From the NCBI RefSeq assembly GCF_001557325.1, contig NZ_LSJS01000169.1, positions 1 to 25,382 of the forward strand: a DNA stretch of 25,382 nucleotides, read 5' to 3'. Of this stretch, positions 7,634 to 25,382 are shown piece by piece. The notes under the pieces were generated by a model, which did no database searches, was not told where the DNA came from, and was given only the letters and a program-made list of their open reading frames with translations. Position numbers and translations under genes: made by a program. The DNA is from Erythrobacter donghaensis. Its GTDB lineage: Bacteria; Pseudomonadota; Alphaproteobacteria; Sphingomonadales; Sphingomonadaceae. How positions within the stretch are numbered: the stretch's first letter is position 1; each line of letters begins with the position of its first letter.

Positions 7634-10043
<2,410 letters not shown>

Positions 10044-13772: not shown

Positions 13773-18659
<4,887 letters not shown>

Positions 18660-18697: not shown

Positions 18698-18724
18698 AAT
18701 AAAGATTGACAATCATTCGCAATA
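18698..18724 (+). promoter_or_regulatory. metalloregulator-type operator/promoter of the TonB receptor
   Basis: An AT-rich island in GC-rich DNA, 45-71 bp before the receptor start. It contains TTGACA (18706-18711), a consensus -35 box; the -10 near 18729-18735 is poor. On the minus strand it holds AATGATTGTCA, close to the core of a Fur box. Its right end, CGCAATA (18718-18724), matches the half-site CGTAATA of the two downstream palindromes in 6 of 7 positions, but the left end matches poorly. Fur, NikR or both could bind here. Confidence 0.5.
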
Positions 18725-18768
18725 GCAAGAAATGTGGGCCTCCCTTTCCGACCTGATCCGGAGCCCCC

Positions 18769-20967
18769 ATGTCCCTGCGCCTGCCCACCGCCCCGTCGCT
18801 CGCCGCGCTTCTGCTTGCCACCACCGCCGCCCCCGCGTGGGCAAATGGCGAGGCTCCCGAGAGCGGCTCCGAAGCGGGTGGTCCCGGCCCGGCAACCTCG
18901 ATCATCGTCACCGCCGAGCGCGACGGCGACCGCCTGCCCGACCAGTCGGGCACGCTGATCTTCGCGGGCAAGCTCGGCGATATCGCGGTGCTGGACGACA
19001 TCCCCCCGGTGCCCACCCGCAACCTGCGCGTCGCGCTCGCCGACATCCCCGGGCTGCTGGTCTCGGAAGTCTCGAACGGGTCATGGGCCTCGCTCTCCTA
19101 TCGCGGCCTCGGCGAGCCGCACGAGAGCTGGAACATCCTGACGCTTCAGGACGCGGTGCCGGCCGTGCCCGACATGTATTCCTATCCCGCGGGCTACTTC
19201 ACCCCGCCCTTGGAAGCGGTCGAGCGGATCGAGTTCATCCGCGGCGCATCGGGCCTGCTCTACGGCCCGCAGCCGGGCGGGGCGATCAACTATGTGCTCA
19301 GGGGCCCGCGCCGCGAGGCGGGTGTCGGCGCCGAGGCGCGGCTCACCGCAGGCAGCTGGGACGCGCGGCAGGGCTATGCCAGCCTCGCCGCTTCGAACGG
19401 CACGCTCGCCGCGGACGGCTTCATCCATTACGCCGAAGGCGACGGCCCGCGCCGCGTCAATTCCGACCACGAGCAGACCACCGCGCGCCTGCGCGGCCAT
19501 TACCTCGGGGAGGATGTCACCGCGACGCTGAGCCTCGACTATTACACCGGCCGCTTCGGAGAGCCCGGCGGCCTGACCCGCGCGCGGCTCGAGGCCGACC
19601 GCCGCGACGGCTCGCTCACCCGCGACCGCGTCCGGATCGAGCGTTTCGCGCCGAGCCTTGCGGTCGAATGGCAGGCCGATGACGCCACCCTCGTCACCGC
19701 GCGCGCCTTCTACAGCCGCTTCGAGCGCGAGAGCTGGCGCCAGGCAGGCGGCAGCTTCGGCCAGGTGACGCCCGATGCCAATGTGCTGATCCGCCAGCTC
19801 CAGGTGTTCGACACCGCCGGCATCGACCTGCGCGCTCGCCGCGACTTCGGCGGCAATGGCCAGCACAGCGTCACCATCGGCGTGCTCGGCCACACCTCCG
19901 ACGCGCCGGTCTTCGTCGACAAGGGTGCGACCAACGCCGACTTCGTCGGCACCGCAGGCGCGCTCGCGCGGGCGCAGCGCAGCGGCGACACGGCGGCGGT
20001 GTTCGGCGAGGTCAAGCTCGGCTTCGGCGACGTGCAGATCGTCCCCGGCTTCCGGCTCGAACGCCTGCGCCAGCGGGTGGTCGAGACACTCGACCTCGGC
20101 GTGGGCAGCGCCACCGGCGGCGGGCCGGGGGCGGCCAACGGCACGCTCGGCAACCGCGAGGAAGTGAGCACTGTCCCGCTCTACGGCATCGGGGTGACGT
20201 GGGACGCCGCGCCCACCTTGCGCTTCGTCGCCAATGCCAGCCGCGCCTTCAAGCCACTGCTCTACAATGACGGCGTGACCTTCCAGGCCGGGATCGACGC
20301 GGCCGGCACCTTCGAGGCCTCCTACGCCTTCACCATCGAGGGCGGGGTGCAGGCCGAGCCGATCCCGGCGGTGCGGATCGATGCGGGGCTGTTCCGCGTG
20401 GAGTTCGAGGACCAGGTCGGCTTCCTCGCCGGGCCGCTGCCCGCTTCGCCGCCCTTCGGCGCGGTCGGCACGGGCGGCGCGCGGCGGCAGAATGTCGGCA
20501 ATATGCGCAACCAGGGGATCGATCTGGCGGTGCGGCTCGATCTCGTCGGGCCCGAGGGGCTGGCGAAGAGCGACAACACCCTGCGCCTCTCGACCAATCT
20601 GCAACTGCTCGATGCCGAGTTCACCGATGGCGTCGCGGCGGGCTTCACCCCGCAATATGCGCCGGGGCACCTGCTGCGTTCGGTGCTGGCGTGGATCGGC
20701 AAGGATGGCGCGCGCGCGGCGCTGACCTTCACCTCGGTCGGCAATCAGGAGGGCGCGGACAACAATGTCGCGGACTTCTTCCTGCCCGGCTACGAGGTGC
20801 TCGATGCCTCGGTCGAATGGCCCGTCGCGGGCGGTTTCACGATCGGGGCGGGGGTCAACAACCTGCTCGACGAGACTTACGCGAGCCGGGTCCGTCCCGG
20901 CGGCGGCGGCGGGTTCGATCCCGGCGCGCCGCGCAATTTCTATGTCTCGATCGGGTGGAAGGGCTGA
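18769..20967 (+). CDS. FecA-like TonB-dependent outer-membrane receptor
   Basis: A 732-residue outer-membrane receptor for energised uptake of a metal complex. The signal peptide ends near AWA-N (residues 24-26). A TonB-box-like SIIVTAE sits at 44-50, too close to the N-terminus for a signalling (STN) domain, so it is not a transducer type. The plug has FecA-style segments: SYRGLGEPHESWNILTLQD, DMYSYPAGYFTPPLEAVERI and GLLYGPQPGGAINYVLRG. The barrel follows and ends NFYVSIGWKG. The start is supported by CGGAG 5 bases upstream. FecA is named for ferric citrate, but in Helicobacter FecA3 is nickel-regulated by NikR, and a NikR-like gene lies downstream here. A metal chelate is likely; which metal is open. 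Confidence 0.92.
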   Translation: MSLRLPTAPSLAALLLATTAAPAWANGEAPESGSEAGGPGPATSIIVTAERDGDRLPDQSGTLIFAGKLGDIAVLDDIPPVPTRNLRVALADIPGLLVSEVSNGSWASLSYRGLGEPHESWNILTLQDAVPAVPDMYSYPAGYFTPPLEAVERIEFIRGASGLLYGPQPGGAINYVLRGPRREAGVGAEARLTAGSWDARQGYASLAASNGTLAADGFIHYAEGDGPRRVNSDHEQTTARLRGHYLGEDVTATLSLDYYTGRFGEPGGLTRARLEADRRDGSLTRDRVRIERFAPSLAVEWQADDATLVTARAFYSRFERESWRQAGGSFGQVTPDANVLIRQLQVFDTAGIDLRARRDFGGNGQHSVTIGVLGHTSDAPVFVDKGATNADFVGTAGALARAQRSGDTAAVFGEVKLGFGDVQIVPGFRLERLRQRVVETLDLGVGSATGGGPGAANGTLGNREEVSTVPLYGIGVTWDAAPTLRFVANASRAFKPLLYNDGVTFQAGIDAAGTFEASYAFTIEGGVQAEPIPAVRIDAGLFRVEFEDQVGFLAGPLPASPPFGAVGTGGARRQNVGNMRNQGIDLAVRLDLVGPEGLAKSDNTLRLSTNLQLLDAEFTDGVAAGFTPQYAPGHLLRSVLAWIGKDGARAALTFTSVGNQEGADNNVADFFLPGYEVLDASVEWPVAGGFTIGAGVNNLLDETYASRVRPGGGGGFDPGAPRNFYVSIGWKG

Positions 20968-20983
20968 GCGCCTCCCCCTCCGA

Positions 20984-21097
20984 TCAGGCCATCAGCGTCG
21001 GGCTCGCGGGGATGATCGCATAGGCGAAGAAGGCGGCCGAGAGCACCACCGAGAAGGCGGCGGCGAAGAGGCGATGGCTGGTTTCGTTGGCGTACAT
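20984..21097 (-). CDS. 37-residue single-span membrane peptide
   Basis: A small gene starting at ATG 21097 with AAGGAG about 6 bases upstream. The product begins MYANETSHRLFAAAF, has one hydrophobic segment (about residues 10-31) and ends PASPTLMA. It looks like a small inner-membrane protein with a short cytoplasmic N-terminus. A near-consensus sigma-54 promoter lies about 50-80 bp upstream, and the spacing to the ribosome-binding site fits a short leader. It lies tail-to-tail with the TonB receptor (16 bp between stop codons). No function is known to me. The strong ribosome-binding site plus promoter make it a credible gene despite its size. Confidence 0.7.
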   Translation of the reverse strand: MYANETSHRLFAAAFSVVLSAAFFAYAIIPASPTLMA

Positions 21098-21160
21098 GGC
21101 GGGTCTCCTTGACGTGTCTTGCGGTGTGTCCCGGGCCTGTCCCGGGGATGCCGCAGACTT

Positions 21161-21176
21161 TGCAGGAGCCGTGCCA
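21161..21176 (-). promoter_or_regulatory. sigma-54 promoter of the small membrane peptide
   Basis: Read on the minus strand, TGGCACGGCTCCTGCA matches the sigma-54 consensus TGGCACR-N4-TTGCW at all specified positions but one, with correct GG-to-GC spacing. The predicted transcription start is near 21150, giving a leader of about 53 nt before ATG 21097. Sigma-54 promoters need an activator bound upstream; a dyad at 21249-21269 is at a suitable distance. Confidence 0.65.
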
Positions 21177-21248
21177 AACGCGAAAAACGCCGGATTTGCG
21201 CGATTTTGCTCGCTACAGGCTGCACGAGCGCCGGCCCGCCGGGCAAAA

Positions 21249-21269
21249 CCTTGGGAAAAATCGCCAAGG
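21249..21269. promoter_or_regulatory. CCTTGG-N9-CCAAGG dyad: activator site or terminator
   Basis: A perfect 6-bp dyad with a 9-bp spacer, about 100-120 bp upstream of the predicted sigma-54 start and just past the stop of the propeller gene. Read on the minus strand it is followed by TTTT (21248-21245), so it may be a weak intrinsic terminator of the propeller gene. Its position also suits an upstream activating site for an enhancer-binding protein. Confidence 0.35.
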
Positions 21270-21289
21270 GTTGGCAAAGGCGAGCGGCT

Positions 21290-22258
21290 TCACTTGGCGG
21301 CGGGCGGGCTCCACCATGACAGCGTCTGATTGTCATGTGCCGAGGTCCACACGCCTTTGGGTGTCCAGCGCAGCGCGCCGCTGCCCACACTCGGCCCCAT
21401 GCGCGCGCGGATCTTGAGGCTCTGGGCGTCGATCACCACCATCGTCTGGTCCTCGGTGGTGCGCAGCCACACCGCGCCGTCGCCGGTATCGATATCGCCC
21501 CACTTGAGCTTGGGCCCGATCTTCGTGCGCCCCTGCACGGTGAGCGCCGCCGGATCGACCTTGGCGACCGTGCCGTCGCCCTGTTCCTGCACCCACACCG
21601 CGCCCTCTCCGGCCGCGAGGAAGCCGGGGGTGTCGCCCATCGAGACCTTGCCGGTGACCGCGTTGGTGGCGGGGTCGATCCGCTCCAATGACCTGCCCTC
21701 GCTCGACACCGCCCACACCGCATCGAAGCCGAAGGCGAGATACCACGTCTCGGGCGTTACCGGGATCGTCGCGATCACCGTGTTGGTCGCCGGATCGATC
21801 CGCGCGACTTTGCCCGCCGGGTCGCTCGGCACCCATACCGATCCCGCGCCGGAGACCACGTTGGTCTCGCCCTTGGGATTGCCGAGGCCGGTCGCGATTT
21901 TGGCCTCGATCTGAGCCGTCGCAAGGTTGATCCGGTATACATCGCCGTCCTTGCAATTGGCGACCCACAACGACCCTGCCGCAGTGGTCATCGCGCCGCA
22001 GGGGCGCGGGACGGGGGTGCTCGCAGCGAGGCCCGCGGGCGTCCACTTCTCGACCCGCCCGTCATTGGTGACCCACACCGCATCGCCGTCGATCGCCATG
22101 AAATCGGCAAAGCCGGGCACCTTCATCGCGTTCTCGGCGAGATCGGGCGCGGGGCCGACCGCATCGTTCGGCGGCGGGCCGTCCTCGGCGCAGGCCGAGG
22201 TCGCGAGTGCAGCGGCGGCGGCAAGCGTGGCAAGCGGGCGGGCAGCGTTCTTGGTCAT
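21290..22258 (-). CDS. seven-bladed beta-propeller envelope protein (YncE/Vgb-like)
   Basis: A 322-residue exported protein. The N-terminus is hydrophobic and ends ATSAC (Cys23), a possible but non-standard lipobox, so it is either a lipoprotein or a cleaved periplasmic protein. The rest is built from about seven repeats of the form VWV-x-x-x-G-x-V-x-x-IDPATN (for example KVARIDPATNTVIATIPV and SLERIDPATNAVTGKVSM), typical of YncE/virginiamycin-lyase-like propellers. The start is supported by GGAGG 9 bases upstream. It diverges from the ABC importer genes, with a shared palindromic operator between them. In E. coli the propeller YncE is likewise encoded beside a TonB receptor (YncD), which suggests, but does not show, a role linked to receptor-mediated uptake. 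Confidence 0.8.
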   Translation of the reverse strand: MTKNAARPLATLAAAAALATSACAEDGPPPNDAVGPAPDLAENAMKVPGFADFMAIDGDAVWVTNDGRVEKWTPAGLAASTPVPRPCGAMTTAAGSLWVANCKDGDVYRINLATAQIEAKIATGLGNPKGETNVVSGAGSVWVPSDPAGKVARIDPATNTVIATIPVTPETWYLAFGFDAVWAVSSEGRSLERIDPATNAVTGKVSMGDTPGFLAAGEGAVWVQEQGDGTVAKVDPAALTVQGRTKIGPKLKWGDIDTGDGAVWLRTTEDQTMVVIDAQSLKIRARMGPSVGSGALRWTPKGVWTSAHDNQTLSWWSPPAAK

Positions 22259-22279
22259 GGTTCTTTGCCTCCATGCGGC

Positions 22280-22345
22280 GGCAGGCGGGGAGAGGAAGCG
22301 CCCCGCAAGGGCGCAGCGCCTGCCACGGTGGAACCAATCTCTCCC
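22280..22345 (-). promoter_or_regulatory. structured leader of the propeller gene, possible pseudoknot
   Basis: Between the propeller start and the shared operator, GGCAGGCG (22280-22287) pairs with CGCCTGCC (22317-22324) and encloses a 6-bp hairpin (22298-22303 with 22309-22314, 5-nt loop). The 10-nt internal loop contains GGGAGAG (22288-22294), complementary to CTCTCCC (22339-22345) outside the stem, so a pseudoknot or alternative fold is possible. It matches no riboswitch class I recognise. The minus-strand transcript would need to start above 22345 for the outer partner to be included. Confidence 0.3.
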
Positions 22346-22346
22346 A

Positions 22347-22372
22347 TATTACGTTTGCAATCAATCGTAATA
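22347..22372. promoter_or_regulatory. 26-bp palindrome between divergent propeller and ABC genes (candidate NikR box A)
   Basis: TATTACG (22347-22353) and CGTAATA (22366-22372) form a perfect 7-bp dyad with a 12-bp spacer, in an AT-rich spot 64 bp before the binding-protein start and 89 bp from the propeller start. A near-identical palindrome of the same total length precedes the NikR-like gene. The form resembles the Helicobacter NikR box (TATWATT-N11-AATWATA). A divergent minus-strand -10-like TAATAT overlaps it. Confidence 0.6.
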
Positions 22373-22435
22373 AATCATGGTGGACAAACGCAGCCAAGGC
22401 GCGGATGTTCGCGGGCGCAACATAGGGGACGAATC

Positions 22436-23524
22436 ATGCTCCACCACCTCTCCCGGGCAGCCCGCTTCCTCCTCCTCGGCCTCGCCGCGCTGCTGGTGAC
22501 AGCATGCTCCGGCGGGGAGGAAGAGGCAGCCGCGCCCAAGACCGAGTTCAACATCGGCTGGTCGATATACGCCGGGTGGATGCCCTGGCCCTATGCCGAA
22601 CAGGCCGGGATCGTGAAGAAGTGGGGCGACAAGTACGGGATCACGATCAGGTTCGTGCAGGTGAACGATTATATCGAGAGCGTGAACCAGTACACCGCGG
22701 GCAAATTGGACGGGGTGACGGTCGCCAACATGGACGCGCTGACCATCCCCGCCGCAGGCGGCAAGGACACCAGCGCGATCATCCTCGGCGACTATTCCAA
22801 CGGCAATGACGCGGTGCTGCTGAAGGGCGCGGAAACGCTCGCGGGGATCAAGGGGCGGCAGGTCTACCTCGCCGAGCTGTCGGTCTCGCACTACCTCCTC
22901 GCCCGCGCGCTCGAGAAGAGCGGCCTCAAGCTCGCCGACGTGAAAACGGTCAACACCTCGGACGCCGACATCGCCGCCGCCTTCGCCGCGCCGGAGGTCA
23001 CCGCAGCCGTGGCGTGGAACCCGCAGGTCACCACCATGAAGGGCGTGGCGGGCACCAAGGCGGTGTTCACCTCGGCCGATATCCCGGGCGAGATCCTCGA
23101 CCTTCTGGTGGTCGATACCGCCACGCTCAAGGCCAATCCCAACCTCGGCAAGGCGCTGGCGGGCATCTGGTACGAAACCATGGCGCTGATGGCCCGGAAG
23201 GACGCCGAAGGTGCCGCCGCGCGCGCCGCGATGGCGAAGCTCGCGGGCACCACACCCGAAGCCTTCGAGGGCCAGCTGGCGACCACCTTCCTCTACACCG
23301 ATCCCAGGGCAGCGGCGGCGGCCATGTTATCGGACGACCTGGTCACCACCATGAACCGGGTGCGCGATTTCTCCTTCGCCCAAGGTCTGTTCGGGCAAGG
23401 TGCGCGATCGGCTGACGCGGTGGGGATGAGCTTCCCAGGGAGCAAGGCGCTGGGCGATGTCAACGCGATAACCCTGCGTTTCGACAACACCTACATGGTG
23501 ATGGCCGCGGACGGGAAGCTGTAA
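22436..23524 (+). CDS. ABC importer substrate-binding lipoprotein (NitT/TauT type, urea-carboxylase-region-like)
   Basis: A 362-residue periplasmic binding protein anchored by a lipobox, VTAC (Cys24). The early segments NIGWSIYAGWMPWPYAEQAG, DYIESVNQYTAGKLDG, NMDALTIPAAGGKDTS and GDYSNGNDAVLLKG strongly resemble the family annotated as urea ABC transporter binding protein next to urea carboxylase, within the NitT/TauT group. No urea or guanidine enzyme is visible here. The start at ATG 22436 is supported by AGGGGA 6 bases upstream and by the signal peptide. It is followed 4 bp later by the permease. Given the upstream palindrome and the downstream NikR-like gene, the cargo may be a nickel complex or a solute used by a nickel enzyme. 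The role as importer is firm; the substrate is inferred. Confidence 0.88.
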   Translation: MLHHLSRAARFLLLGLAALLVTACSGGEEEAAAPKTEFNIGWSIYAGWMPWPYAEQAGIVKKWGDKYGITIRFVQVNDYIESVNQYTAGKLDGVTVANMDALTIPAAGGKDTSAIILGDYSNGNDAVLLKGAETLAGIKGRQVYLAELSVSHYLLARALEKSGLKLADVKTVNTSDADIAAAFAAPEVTAAVAWNPQVTTMKGVAGTKAVFTSADIPGEILDLLVVDTATLKANPNLGKALAGIWYETMALMARKDAEGAAARAAMAKLAGTTPEAFEGQLATTFLYTDPRAAAAAMLSDDLVTTMNRVRDFSFAQGLFGQGARSADAVGMSFPGSKALGDVNAITLRFDNTYMVMAADGKL

Positions 23525-23528
23525 GCCG

Positions 23529-24344
23529 GTGCGCTGGGTGACCGCCAATCCCGAGCGGCGCGGCAGTCTGCTGCTCGGCGCGGCGCCGCTGCTGGTGCTG
23601 GCGCTCGGCTACGTCATCGCCGCCGCCGCGCGCCATGCCGACAACCCCGCCGAAAAGATCCTGCCGCTTCCGGGAGCGATGGCGGCGGCGATGGCGGGGC
23701 TGTTGTTCGAGCCCGATCCGCTCTCGGGGCAATATCTGTTCTGGGCCGACACCGCCGCGAGCCTGTGGCGGCTCGGCGCGGGGCTGGGGATCGCGACGCT
23801 CTCGGCGCTGCTGGTCGGCCTGATGCTGGGCGCCCTGCCGCCGGTTCGCAGCACTCTCGGGCCGCTCGTCACCGGGATCGCGGTGATCCCGCCGATCGCG
23901 CTGCTGCCGATCCTGTTCATCACCTTCGGCCTCGGCGAGGCTGCCAAGGTGGCGCTGATCGTGATCGGCGTCGCGCCCTTCATGATCCGCGATGTCGCCG
24001 GCCACATCGGTGCCCTGCCGCGCGAGCAGGTGGTCAAGGCGCTCACGCTCGGCGCCAATTCCTGGGGCGTGATCCTGCGCGTCGCCTTGCCGCAGGCGCT
24101 GCCTCGCCTGTTCGAGGCCCTGCGCCTCTCGCTCGGCCCCGCATGGGTGTTCCTGATCTCGGCCGAGGCGATCGCCGCCGACGTCGGCCTCGGCTACCGC
24201 ATCTTCCTCGTGCGGCGCTATCTCGCGATGGACGTGATCATCCCTTACGTGGCGTGGATCGCGCTGCTGGCGGTTCTGATGGACTTGGCCCTCACCTTCG
24301 CCAGCCGCCGCCTGTTCGGCTGGGCCCATCTGGGGACGCGCTGA
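23529..24344 (+). CDS. ABC importer permease (NitT/TauT type)
   Basis: A 271-residue inner-membrane protein with several hydrophobic spans and the cytoplasmic coupling (EAA-like) loop ALTLGANSWGVILRVALPQA from about residue 171, followed by LRLSLGPAWVFLISAEAI, as in BPD_transp_1 permeases of the nitrate/taurine/sulfonate group. It starts with GTG 4 bp after the binding-protein stop and ends 3 bp before the ATPase start, so the three genes form one transcription unit. As the only permease, it probably acts as a homodimer with two copies of the ATPase. Confidence 0.9.
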   Translation: MRWVTANPERRGSLLLGAAPLLVLALGYVIAAAARHADNPAEKILPLPGAMAAAMAGLLFEPDPLSGQYLFWADTAASLWRLGAGLGIATLSALLVGLMLGALPPVRSTLGPLVTGIAVIPPIALLPILFITFGLGEAAKVALIVIGVAPFMIRDVAGHIGALPREQVVKALTLGANSWGVILRVALPQALPRLFEALRLSLGPAWVFLISAEAIAADVGLGYRIFLVRRYLAMDVIIPYVAWIALLAVLMDLALTFASRRLFGWAHLGTR

Positions 24345-24347
24345 GCC

Positions 24348-25136
24348 ATGCTGTCCCTGCGCAACCTCTGGGTCGAATATGGCGAGAAGGTGGTGCTCGA
24401 ACGCATCACGATCGATATTGCCGAGAGGAGCTTCGTCTCGATCATCGGCCCCTCGGGGGCGGGCAAGAGCAGCCTGCTGCGCGTGATCCTCGGGCAGGAG
24501 CAGCCGAGCCGGGGGCGTATCACCCTCGACGGGGCGCCGCTCCCCGCCGAATGCGGGCCGGACCGCGGCGTGGTGTTCCAGCGCTATTCGGTGTTCCCGC
24601 ATCTGACCGTGCTCGGCAATGTGCTGCTGGGTCTCGAATTTGCCGCCTCGCCCTTCACCGCGCGGCTGTTCGGCAGCGCGCGGCAGGCGGGCGTCGCCGA
24701 GGCCGAGGCAATGCTTGACGAGGTCGGCCTCGCCGACAGCCGCCATCTCTACCCGGCGCAGATGTCGGGCGGGATGCAGCAGCGCTTGGCAATCGCGCAG
24801 GCGCTGATCAAGCGCCCGCGCATCCTGCTGCTCGATGAGCCCTTCGGCGCGCTCGATCCGGGCATCAGGGGCGACATGCACGCGCTCATCACCCGCCTGT
24901 GGCGCGAGCACGGGCTGACGATCATCATGGTCACCCACGACATCAAGGAGGCCTTCGGGCTCGGCACGCGGGTGCTCACGCTCGACAAGCGCCGCCACGA
25001 TCCGCACGCGCCGCACCGCTACGGGGCAGGGGTGGTCTACGACCTCGAACTGACCCGCAAGCAGCCTCCCGACGTCCCGCCGGAGCTGGAGCGGGAAGAG
25101 GTCGGTATTACGATTGACACGATAGGTAATAATTGA
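24348..25136 (+). CDS. ABC importer ATPase
   Basis: A 262-residue cytoplasmic ATPase with Walker A GPSGAGKSS (residues 34-42), Q-loop VVFQRY, signature MSGGMQQRL (139-147), Walker B ILLLDEPFGALD (159-170) and the H-switch MVTHDI (194-199). A C-terminal tail of about 40 residues (after VYDLEL) extends beyond the nucleotide-binding core, as in NitT/TauT-type ATPases beside urea-type binding proteins. The final 10 or so codons overlap the second palindromic operator (25106-25131), so the end of the coding sequence also serves as regulatory DNA for the next gene. Confidence 0.93.
   Translation: MLSLRNLWVEYGEKVVLERITIDIAERSFVSIIGPSGAGKSSLLRVILGQEQPSRGRITLDGAPLPAECGPDRGVVFQRYSVFPHLTVLGNVLLGLEFAASPFTARLFGSARQAGVAEAEAMLDEVGLADSRHLYPAQMSGGMQQRLAIAQALIKRPRILLLDEPFGALDPGIRGDMHALITRLWREHGLTIIMVTHDIKEAFGLGTRVLTLDKRRHDPHAPHRYGAGVVYDLELTRKQPPDVPPELEREEVGITIDTIGNN
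25106..25131. promoter_or_regulatory. 26-bp palindrome before the NikR-like gene (candidate NikR box B)
   Basis: TATTAC (25106-25111) and GTAATA (25126-25131) form a perfect 6-bp dyad with a 14-bp spacer, the same outer half-sites and total length as box A. It lies in the last codons of the ATPase gene and ends 6 bp before the regulator's first ATG, suiting autoregulation. The TTGACA inside it (25114-25119) is too close to the start codon to serve a normal promoter for this gene. Confidence 0.6.
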
Positions 25137-25137
25137 G

Positions 25138-25382
25138 ATGCCCGGCAGCATGAGCCCCCCCGAAAACTCGCGGCCCGAACCGGCCAGGCTGGCGCGCCTC
25201 TCGATGAGCCTGCCGGCCGAGCTGTTCCGCCAGCTCGACCTGATGGTGGAGGAGCGAGGGCTGCCGTCGCGCTCGCAGCTGATCGCCGAACTGATCCGCC
25301 ACGCGCTCGCCGAGCACGAGGCGCTGACGCGGCCGGACGAGACGCTCGCGGGGACGGTGACGATCGTCTACCAGGGCGGGGG
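25138..25382 (+). CDS. nikR: NikR-type ribbon-helix-helix regulator (partial, cut by window end)
   Basis: 81 codons are visible, with no stop before the window end. After a 15-residue Pro/Glu-rich lead, RLARLSMSLPAELFRQLD, then GLPSRSQLIAELIRHAL, match the DNA-binding ribbon and two helices of NikR, closest to the Helicobacter form (R-x-S-x-S-L and SRSEL). The following GTVTIVYQGG corresponds to the start of the metal-binding ACT-like domain. The His and Cys nickel ligands would lie beyond 25382 and cannot be checked. The start is ATG 25138, 1 bp after the ATPase stop, with only a weak ribosome-binding site; ATG 25150 is an alternative. A CopG-type regulator without metal binding is the main alternative. 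It probably controls the two palindromes and hence the ABC and propeller genes. Confidence 0.75.
   Translation, partial: MPGSMSPPENSRPEPARLARLSMSLPAELFRQLDLMVEERGLPSRSQLIAELIRHALAEHEALTRPDETLAGTVTIVYQGG

Follow-up and report, generated by a model that had tools for sequence, protein, structure and literature searches.

What does the importer operon at the end of an Erythrobacter donghaensis contig carry, and what does the NikR-like regulator encoded directly behind it sense? The stretch in question (the window) is the whole 25,382 nucleotides of NZ_LSJS01000169.1. An initial annotation, made from the sequence alone, had read its last genes as a candidate nickel-responsive uptake module, running from a TonB-dependent receptor through an ATP-binding cassette (ABC) importer to NikR. 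Our analysis leads elsewhere: the window probably contains the importer-encoding half of an operon for guanidine assimilation under a nickel-blind relative of NikR that senses guanidine or a product of the pathway. This reading is carried by computed results on gene identity, on the loss of nickel ligands in relatives, on a palindromic operator and its tie to the regulator, and on the alternation of this regulator with guanidine riboswitches. The operon and the operator are well supported.

Every gene named in the initial annotation, from the receptor to the NikR-like start, is indeed open where it had been placed. Together with two copies of the operator, the features of the window are:

18769..20967, plus strand: TonB-dependent receptor with plug and barrel domains, a neighbour outside the conserved module
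21290..22258, minus strand: beta-propeller lipoprotein (beta-propeller repeat TIGR02276, 51.5 bits), a probable accessory member
22347..22372: putative operator 1, TATTAC-N14-GTAATA, 63 bp before the ATG of the binding-protein gene and 88 bp before that of the propeller gene
22436..23524, plus strand: substrate-binding lipoprotein of a guanidine/urea-carboxylase-type ABC importer (TIGR03427, 520 bits, cut-off 334), with start codon and lipobox read
23529..24344, plus strand: ABC permease (PF00528, 66.5 bits), with a relative in 76 of 80 related loci
24348..25136, plus strand: ABC ATPase (PF00005, 111 bits)
25106..25131: putative operator 2, again TATTAC-N14-GTAATA, lying over the 3' end of the ATPase gene, with 6 bp between it and the ATG of the regulator gene
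25138..25382, plus strand: first 81 codons of a NikR-like regulator (PRK04460, 39.9 bits; RHH_1, 30 bits), with full relatives in 69 of the 80 loci

The importer had been classed as NitT/TauT-type, which holds but can be made more specific, since its binding protein passes the TIGR03427 cut-off. It was also correctly seen that a NikR-family gene closes this NitT-type importer operon. The regulator fragment comprises a ribbon-helix-helix domain and the beginning of the NikR C domain, and its matches to NikR models are weak (PRK04460 being the best) because the gene is cut by the window end. The nickel-ligand region lies past that end and is therefore unreadable in the window's own regulator; all genes beyond position 25382 are known from relatives only. 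Upstream, the propeller and binding-lipoprotein genes form a divergent pair that flanks operator 1.

Related loci were defined as the best 80 of 206 relatives matched in one scan with the window's binding protein; among them the closest relatives of that protein, from Porphyrobacter and Erythrobacter, are at most 93% identical. In one such locus (L002) the importer is followed in order by the NikR-like regulator, UAAP1, UAAP2, a urea-type carboxylase and allophanate hydrolase, the last four all above curated cut-offs. We take UAAP1 and UAAP2 to be the carboxyguanidine-deaminating subunits CgdA and CgdB, in agreement with the gene order of the Vreelandella boliviensis operon. In family terms, the L002 genes from the regulator on are the regulator, two DUF1989 proteins, a biotin-type carboxylase and allophanate hydrolase, and among the genes identified after the regulator there is no nickel enzyme, urease, ureohydrolase, nickel guanidinase or nickel-loading protein. 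A guanidine-like solute, one of the alternatives originally offered, is the best fit, but the accompanying idea that the enzyme acting on it needs nickel (urease or nickel guanidinase) does not agree with this gene content. In the fetched stretches the regulator is present in 69 and UAAP1 in 68 of the 80 loci, and every locus with UAAP1 also carries the regulator. The 11 loci lacking the regulator consist of six contigs shorter than 9 kb and five longer ones (L059, L063, L067, L072 and L078). UAAP1/2 accompany the carboxylase in 67 of the 70 loci with a carboxylase match, the exceptions being L067, L072 and the short L076 (8.9 kb). Neither regulator nor operator is present in L067 and L072, whose operons may be of the urea kind.

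The L002 regulator contains both NikR domains, ribbon-helix-helix (RHH_1, 26 bits) and NikR_C (PF08753, 72.9 bits). Against PRK04460 it scores 98.7 bits, below the cut-off of 105, and it likewise stays below the cut-offs of the other four NikR models. A structure model of the monomer (mean predicted local distance difference test score, pLDDT, 71) supports the NikR fold; a pocket at the tetramer interface lies outside the reach of a monomer model. The nickel ligands of NikR, as given in the accessible part of PMC7055735, are H76, H87, H89 and C95. Among 78 aligned rows of regulator relatives, the position of H89 is phenylalanine in all, that of C95 is never cysteine, and that of H76 is histidine in a single row. 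A conserved LLPP tail follows the C domain. Judged by these alignments, the regulator is a NikR-family protein whose relatives have lost three of the four nickel ligands. The initial annotation had tied nickel control to the presence of the metal-binding domain; the domain is there, yet in the relatives its metal site is gone.

Other NikR relatives depart from the canonical site in their own ways. Intermediate forms in L123 and L124 (genomes G783 and G496) keep H87 and H89 and lack H76 and C95. Their genes adjoin a NitT-type importer and genes of the creatininase and glutamine synthetase families, in L124 also a DUF1989 gene. The palindrome near the binding-protein gene is exact in L123 and has one mismatch in L124. 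These two loci hint at a regulator subfamily for nitrogen compounds, and a wider subfamily with half-lost nickel sites (L109–L111) may sense related nitrogen compounds. A NikR-like protein in L088 (G473) shows another pattern of loss, with H76 kept and H87, H89 and C95 replaced by arginine, tyrosine and serine, respectively.

The palindrome TATTAC-N14-GTAATA, present twice in the window, occurs 122 times in the 80 related loci (1.51 Mb), where a first-order Markov model predicts 0.0004 occurrences. Its half-sites are always 14 nucleotides apart, the other spacings between 4 and 30 yielding no case at all, and the 122 sites contain 84 distinct spacers, indicating that the halves are conserved while the middle drifts. 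An exact site is found in 73 of the 80 loci and in 67 of the 69 that bear the regulator, the remaining two (L058 and L060) having a site with one mismatch. Among the 11 loci without the regulator, the six short contigs carry the site but the five longer ones do not. Automatic placement put 76 sites near the start of the binding-protein gene and 31 near that of the regulator gene, and 12 of the 122, which it left unassigned, were placed by eye. Eight of these (in L050, L052, L054–L057, L062 and L069) stand just before a regulator start whose open frame extends further upstream; the other four (L029, L031, L033 and L034) lie past the propeller gene, before the next gene. Since operator 2 lies in coding sequence, which may itself account for the retention of some of its bases, its conservation counts for less, viewed in isolation, than the conservation of operator 1. 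A promoter scan around both operators found no sigma-70-type site, so that their overlap with promoters is not readable from the sequence. Two relatives show variants with symmetric changes in both halves, TATGAC-N14-GTCATA (L125) and TGTTAC-N14-GTAACA (L128). The latter is similar to the NikR signal predicted for delta-proteobacteria, GTGTTAC-N13/14-GTAACAC, in the part of PMC545781 available to us.

The exact pattern, without mismatched sites, was also sought in 36 whole genomes, 14 of which have the guanidine-type regulator. Thirteen of the 14 hold 23 exact sites in total, all on the regulator's contig and within about 10 kb of the regulator. By exact pattern, then, the regulon is the guanidine locus. 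It includes no nickel transporter or nickel enzyme, as judged from the position of all 23 operators by the regulator, although not every adjoining gene was read. Among the 22 genomes without the guanidine-type regulator, one (G217) has one exact site.

How do operons of this kind fare where the regulator is missing? We sampled 210 genomes of the class, 147 of the order of genome G001, which we take from record titles and general knowledge to be Sphingomonadales, and 120 of the order of genome G004. Weak matches may have been missed in these searches, in which scoring was limited to the top candidates of a first look and Infernal was run with stricter filters. UAAP2 exceeds its cut-off in seven of the 210 class genomes, with weaker matches in 12 more. 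One of the seven, G001, has the regulator (289 bits). The guanidine-type regulator is missing from the remaining six, in which a guanidine-I riboswitch scoring above cut-off lies 2.7 to 3.8 kb upstream of UAAP2; one of these six, G046, encodes a canonical NikR (60 bits) on another contig. Guanidine-I riboswitches exceed the cut-off in 11 of the 210 genomes, five of which lack UAAP2. Within G001's order, UAAP2 and the regulator occur in the same nine genomes and neither occurs in the other 138; no guanidine-I riboswitch reaches the cut-off in any of the 147, and sub-threshold matches appear in three genomes, none with UAAP2. In G004's order the two genes share the same four genomes, two more genomes have regulator matches of 54–60 bits (one with canonical ligands, one degenerate), and no riboswitch was found in the 120. 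Overall, 13 of 19 UAAP2 genomes have the regulator and no guanidine-I riboswitch above cut-off, and six have the riboswitch and no guanidine-type regulator. The alternation is a strong association.

It extends to the positions of the control elements. Neither the window nor any of 19 regulator-type stretches contains a guanidine riboswitch at gathering score, whereas all four control operons contain one. These four, fetched from the six riboswitch genomes (L130–L133), carry permease, ATPase, UAAP1, UAAP2, carboxylase and allophanate hydrolase genes in matching order, and no regulator. The guanidine-I riboswitch heads the importer genes. In L130 and L133 it precedes the binding-protein gene; in L131 and L132, which yielded no TIGR03427-like binding protein, it precedes the permease gene. 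In every one of the four operons the guanidine-II riboswitch lies directly ahead of UAAP1 and overlaps the ATPase frame at its 3' end. These two positions match those of the palindromes in the window, where operator 2 likewise overlaps the ATPase end. The palindrome itself is absent from all four riboswitch-operon stretches.

A model of how the locus may work can be put forward, in which we infer the ligand, the direction of control, repression, autoregulation, the binding of protein to operator and the path of the solute. Guanidine would be taken up through the ABC importer and carboxylated by the downstream enzymes, seen in relatives, which would also deaminate carboxyguanidine and break allophanate down to ammonia by hydrolysis. 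Assumed to be tetrameric like NikR, the regulator would bridge both half-sites of the palindrome at its two positions, in front of the importer and in front of the regulator gene, repressing the importer and catabolic genes. The location of site 2, six bp before the regulator start codon, fits repression. Binding of guanidine (or of a pathway intermediate, a product or methylguanidine) to the altered ACT-like C domain would release the protein from DNA and relieve repression. The protein would in this way do the job of the guanidine-I and guanidine-II riboswitches of other alphaproteobacteria. On this model a sensor of free guanidine might for the first time be known among transcription factors: a NikR whose nickel site would have given way to a guanidinium site and which, both in Sphingomonadales and in the order to which L069 belongs (presumably that of Caulobacter and Phenylobacterium according to record titles and general knowledge), would have taken over from a pair of riboswitches at the same two control points. 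The chances of this further claim look evenly balanced to us.

Could the same operon and operator answer to something else? The regulator might sense another signal tied to the pathway, such as carboxyguanidine, allophanate, urea, methylguanidine or a nitrogen-state metabolite, which we consider possible though unlikely. The C domain is ACT-like, and such folds commonly bind amino acids and other small metabolites. The intermediate relatives stand beside similar importers and creatininase- and glutamine-synthetase-family genes, so that ligands may vary within the subfamily, and one guanidine-II riboswitch, in the part of PMC12508155 at hand, does not discriminate guanidine from methylguanidine. 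However, guanidine-I and -II riboswitches are guanidine aptamers, and in the sister operons they occupy the same two control points.

A regulator that remains metal-responsive, through the residue equivalent to H87 and others, and that couples the use of guanidine to nickel or a different metal is improbable. Its homology to NikR would suit such a role, as would the H87 equivalent, retained in 74 of the 78 rows, and an almost invariant histidine after the C domain, with which another metal site is possible. Yet the other three ligands are gone from nearly every relative, the four enzyme genes after the L002 regulator include no nickel enzyme, and the operators are located at the guanidine locus. 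We find it very improbable that the operon serves urea instead of guanidine: database names for the importer and operon genes still say urea, but the carboxylase almost always comes with UAAP1/2 and the sister operons bear guanidine riboswitches. Hardly any credence is left for nickel or a nickel chelate passing from the TonB receptor to the ABC importer under NikR, as originally proposed, because, even with TonB receptors near many loci and an operator beside some of them, the window's receptor is unconserved and has no operator, the binding protein belongs to TIGR03427, the operon runs on into guanidine catabolism, and a nickel module is rejected on gene content, on ligand loss in relatives and on the placement of operators almost only at the regulator locus.

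Several observations weigh against a nickel-blind guanidine regulator as the preferred reading, beginning with the two retained histidines. The window's own nickel ligands lie beyond its end, and their loss would have to be read from relatives. The 69 regulators represent 55 distinct 135-residue cores, and many of the loci are close kin. One locus, L066, has the regulator and importer but no UAAP1 in the 21 kb read. The 13 to 6 split does not amount to 19 independent events, because it is lineage-bound and both orders were chosen for holding the regulator. Genome G265 carries the regulator but no exact operator, only the symmetric variant in L128. A control pattern, the palindrome read backwards, occurs once each in six of the 36 genomes, so single sites can be chance. 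Finally, we dropped a rule meant to tell guanidine (Asp) from urea (Asn) carboxylases: the motif, whose PDN and PNN forms we took ourselves to mark this active-site position, reads PWCPDN in the relatives and PNN in the yeast enzyme, but PSN in three riboswitch-controlled operons.

Turning to the neighbouring genes, the window's TonB receptor has a relative in only two of the 80 loci (142 and 24 bits), and no operator lies upstream of it, even allowing up to 3 mismatches. We therefore rejected it as a conserved part of the module in the window. Of the single module originally proposed, importer and regulator stand, the receptor drops out, and catabolic genes lie past the window end. Receptors matching one of four types are found near 42 of the 80 loci. 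In seven loci (L032, L036, L038, L039, L040, L043 and L045) an operator is placed close to the beginning of a receptor gene whose type differs from the window's, and there the receptors may belong to the regulon. The propeller has a relative in 56 loci, and its position shifts: in Erythrobacter-type loci it sits beside operator 1, divergent from the importer, and some others (L032, L127) have it at the operon's far end. In L027 two metallo-beta-lactamase-fold genes (7672-9886; similar frames in L024) lie between propeller and importer, divergent from the latter. L127 (G357) has two regulator copies on one contig (7844-8299 and 11290-11745), and G265 has two UAAP2–regulator pairs on two contigs. 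The L026/L027 pair includes a contig labelled Candidatus Poribacteria whose regulator shows no difference, over the sequence printed, from the one on a Croceicoccus contig; the Poribacteria-labelled contig is probably a misbinned one of a metagenome-assembled genome. Further upstream in the window (15133-18659), frames recognised by eye resemble phosphoglucomutase and a glycogen-debranching enzyme, that is, carbohydrate-metabolism-like genes.

How does this locus compare with known systems? It shares with NikR the two domains (complete in L002, with RHH_1 above cut-off in the window fragment) and a long inverted-repeat operator with a fixed wide spacer, putative here. It differs in the joint absence of H76, H89 and C95 from 77 of the 78 relatives, in the LLPP tail and in its target, guanidine catabolism. 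The riboswitch-controlled guanidine carboxylase operon of V. boliviensis, as far as PMC12508155 was available, likewise combines an ABC importer, cgdA/B, guanidine carboxylase and allophanate hydrolase with two control points, which are guanidine-I and -II riboswitches there and, as we propose, a protein with two palindromes here. Loci of the nickel-dependent guanidinase GdmH, according to the portion of PMC12186494 at our disposal, also place a guanidine importer beside guanidine catabolism, but no ureohydrolase or nickel-loading protein is among the genes identified after the L002 regulator. The urea-carboxylase operon CCNA_01902-06 of Caulobacter crescentus, linked to nickel by the authors of a cold-shock paper (PMC8552747), is possibly of the same kind; the accessible part of that paper mentions neither guanidine nor an altered NikR. 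The available sections of the 2025 review PMC12186494 describe riboswitches as the only known guanidine receptors besides transporters and enzymes, and add that guanidine-binding regulatory proteins may yet be found. In the open-access literature we found no paper joining NikR and guanidine, though prior work elsewhere is possible. Both the operon and the regulator family described here are known; their pairing is new, and the sensor site has changed.

The analysis provides a concrete candidate for a guanidine-sensing protein regulator, with a defined putative operator, which makes the question directly testable; if confirmed, the protein could possibly serve as a biosensor for guanidine. It also carries a warning, as proteins of this regulator's kind are named nickel-responsive by some sources and such an operon has been read as nickel-linked, at least in the part of PMC8552747 referred to above. 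If the proposal is true, one and the same operon would be under RNA control in some lineages and under protein control in others, and a metal sensor would have been turned into a sensor of a small molecule.

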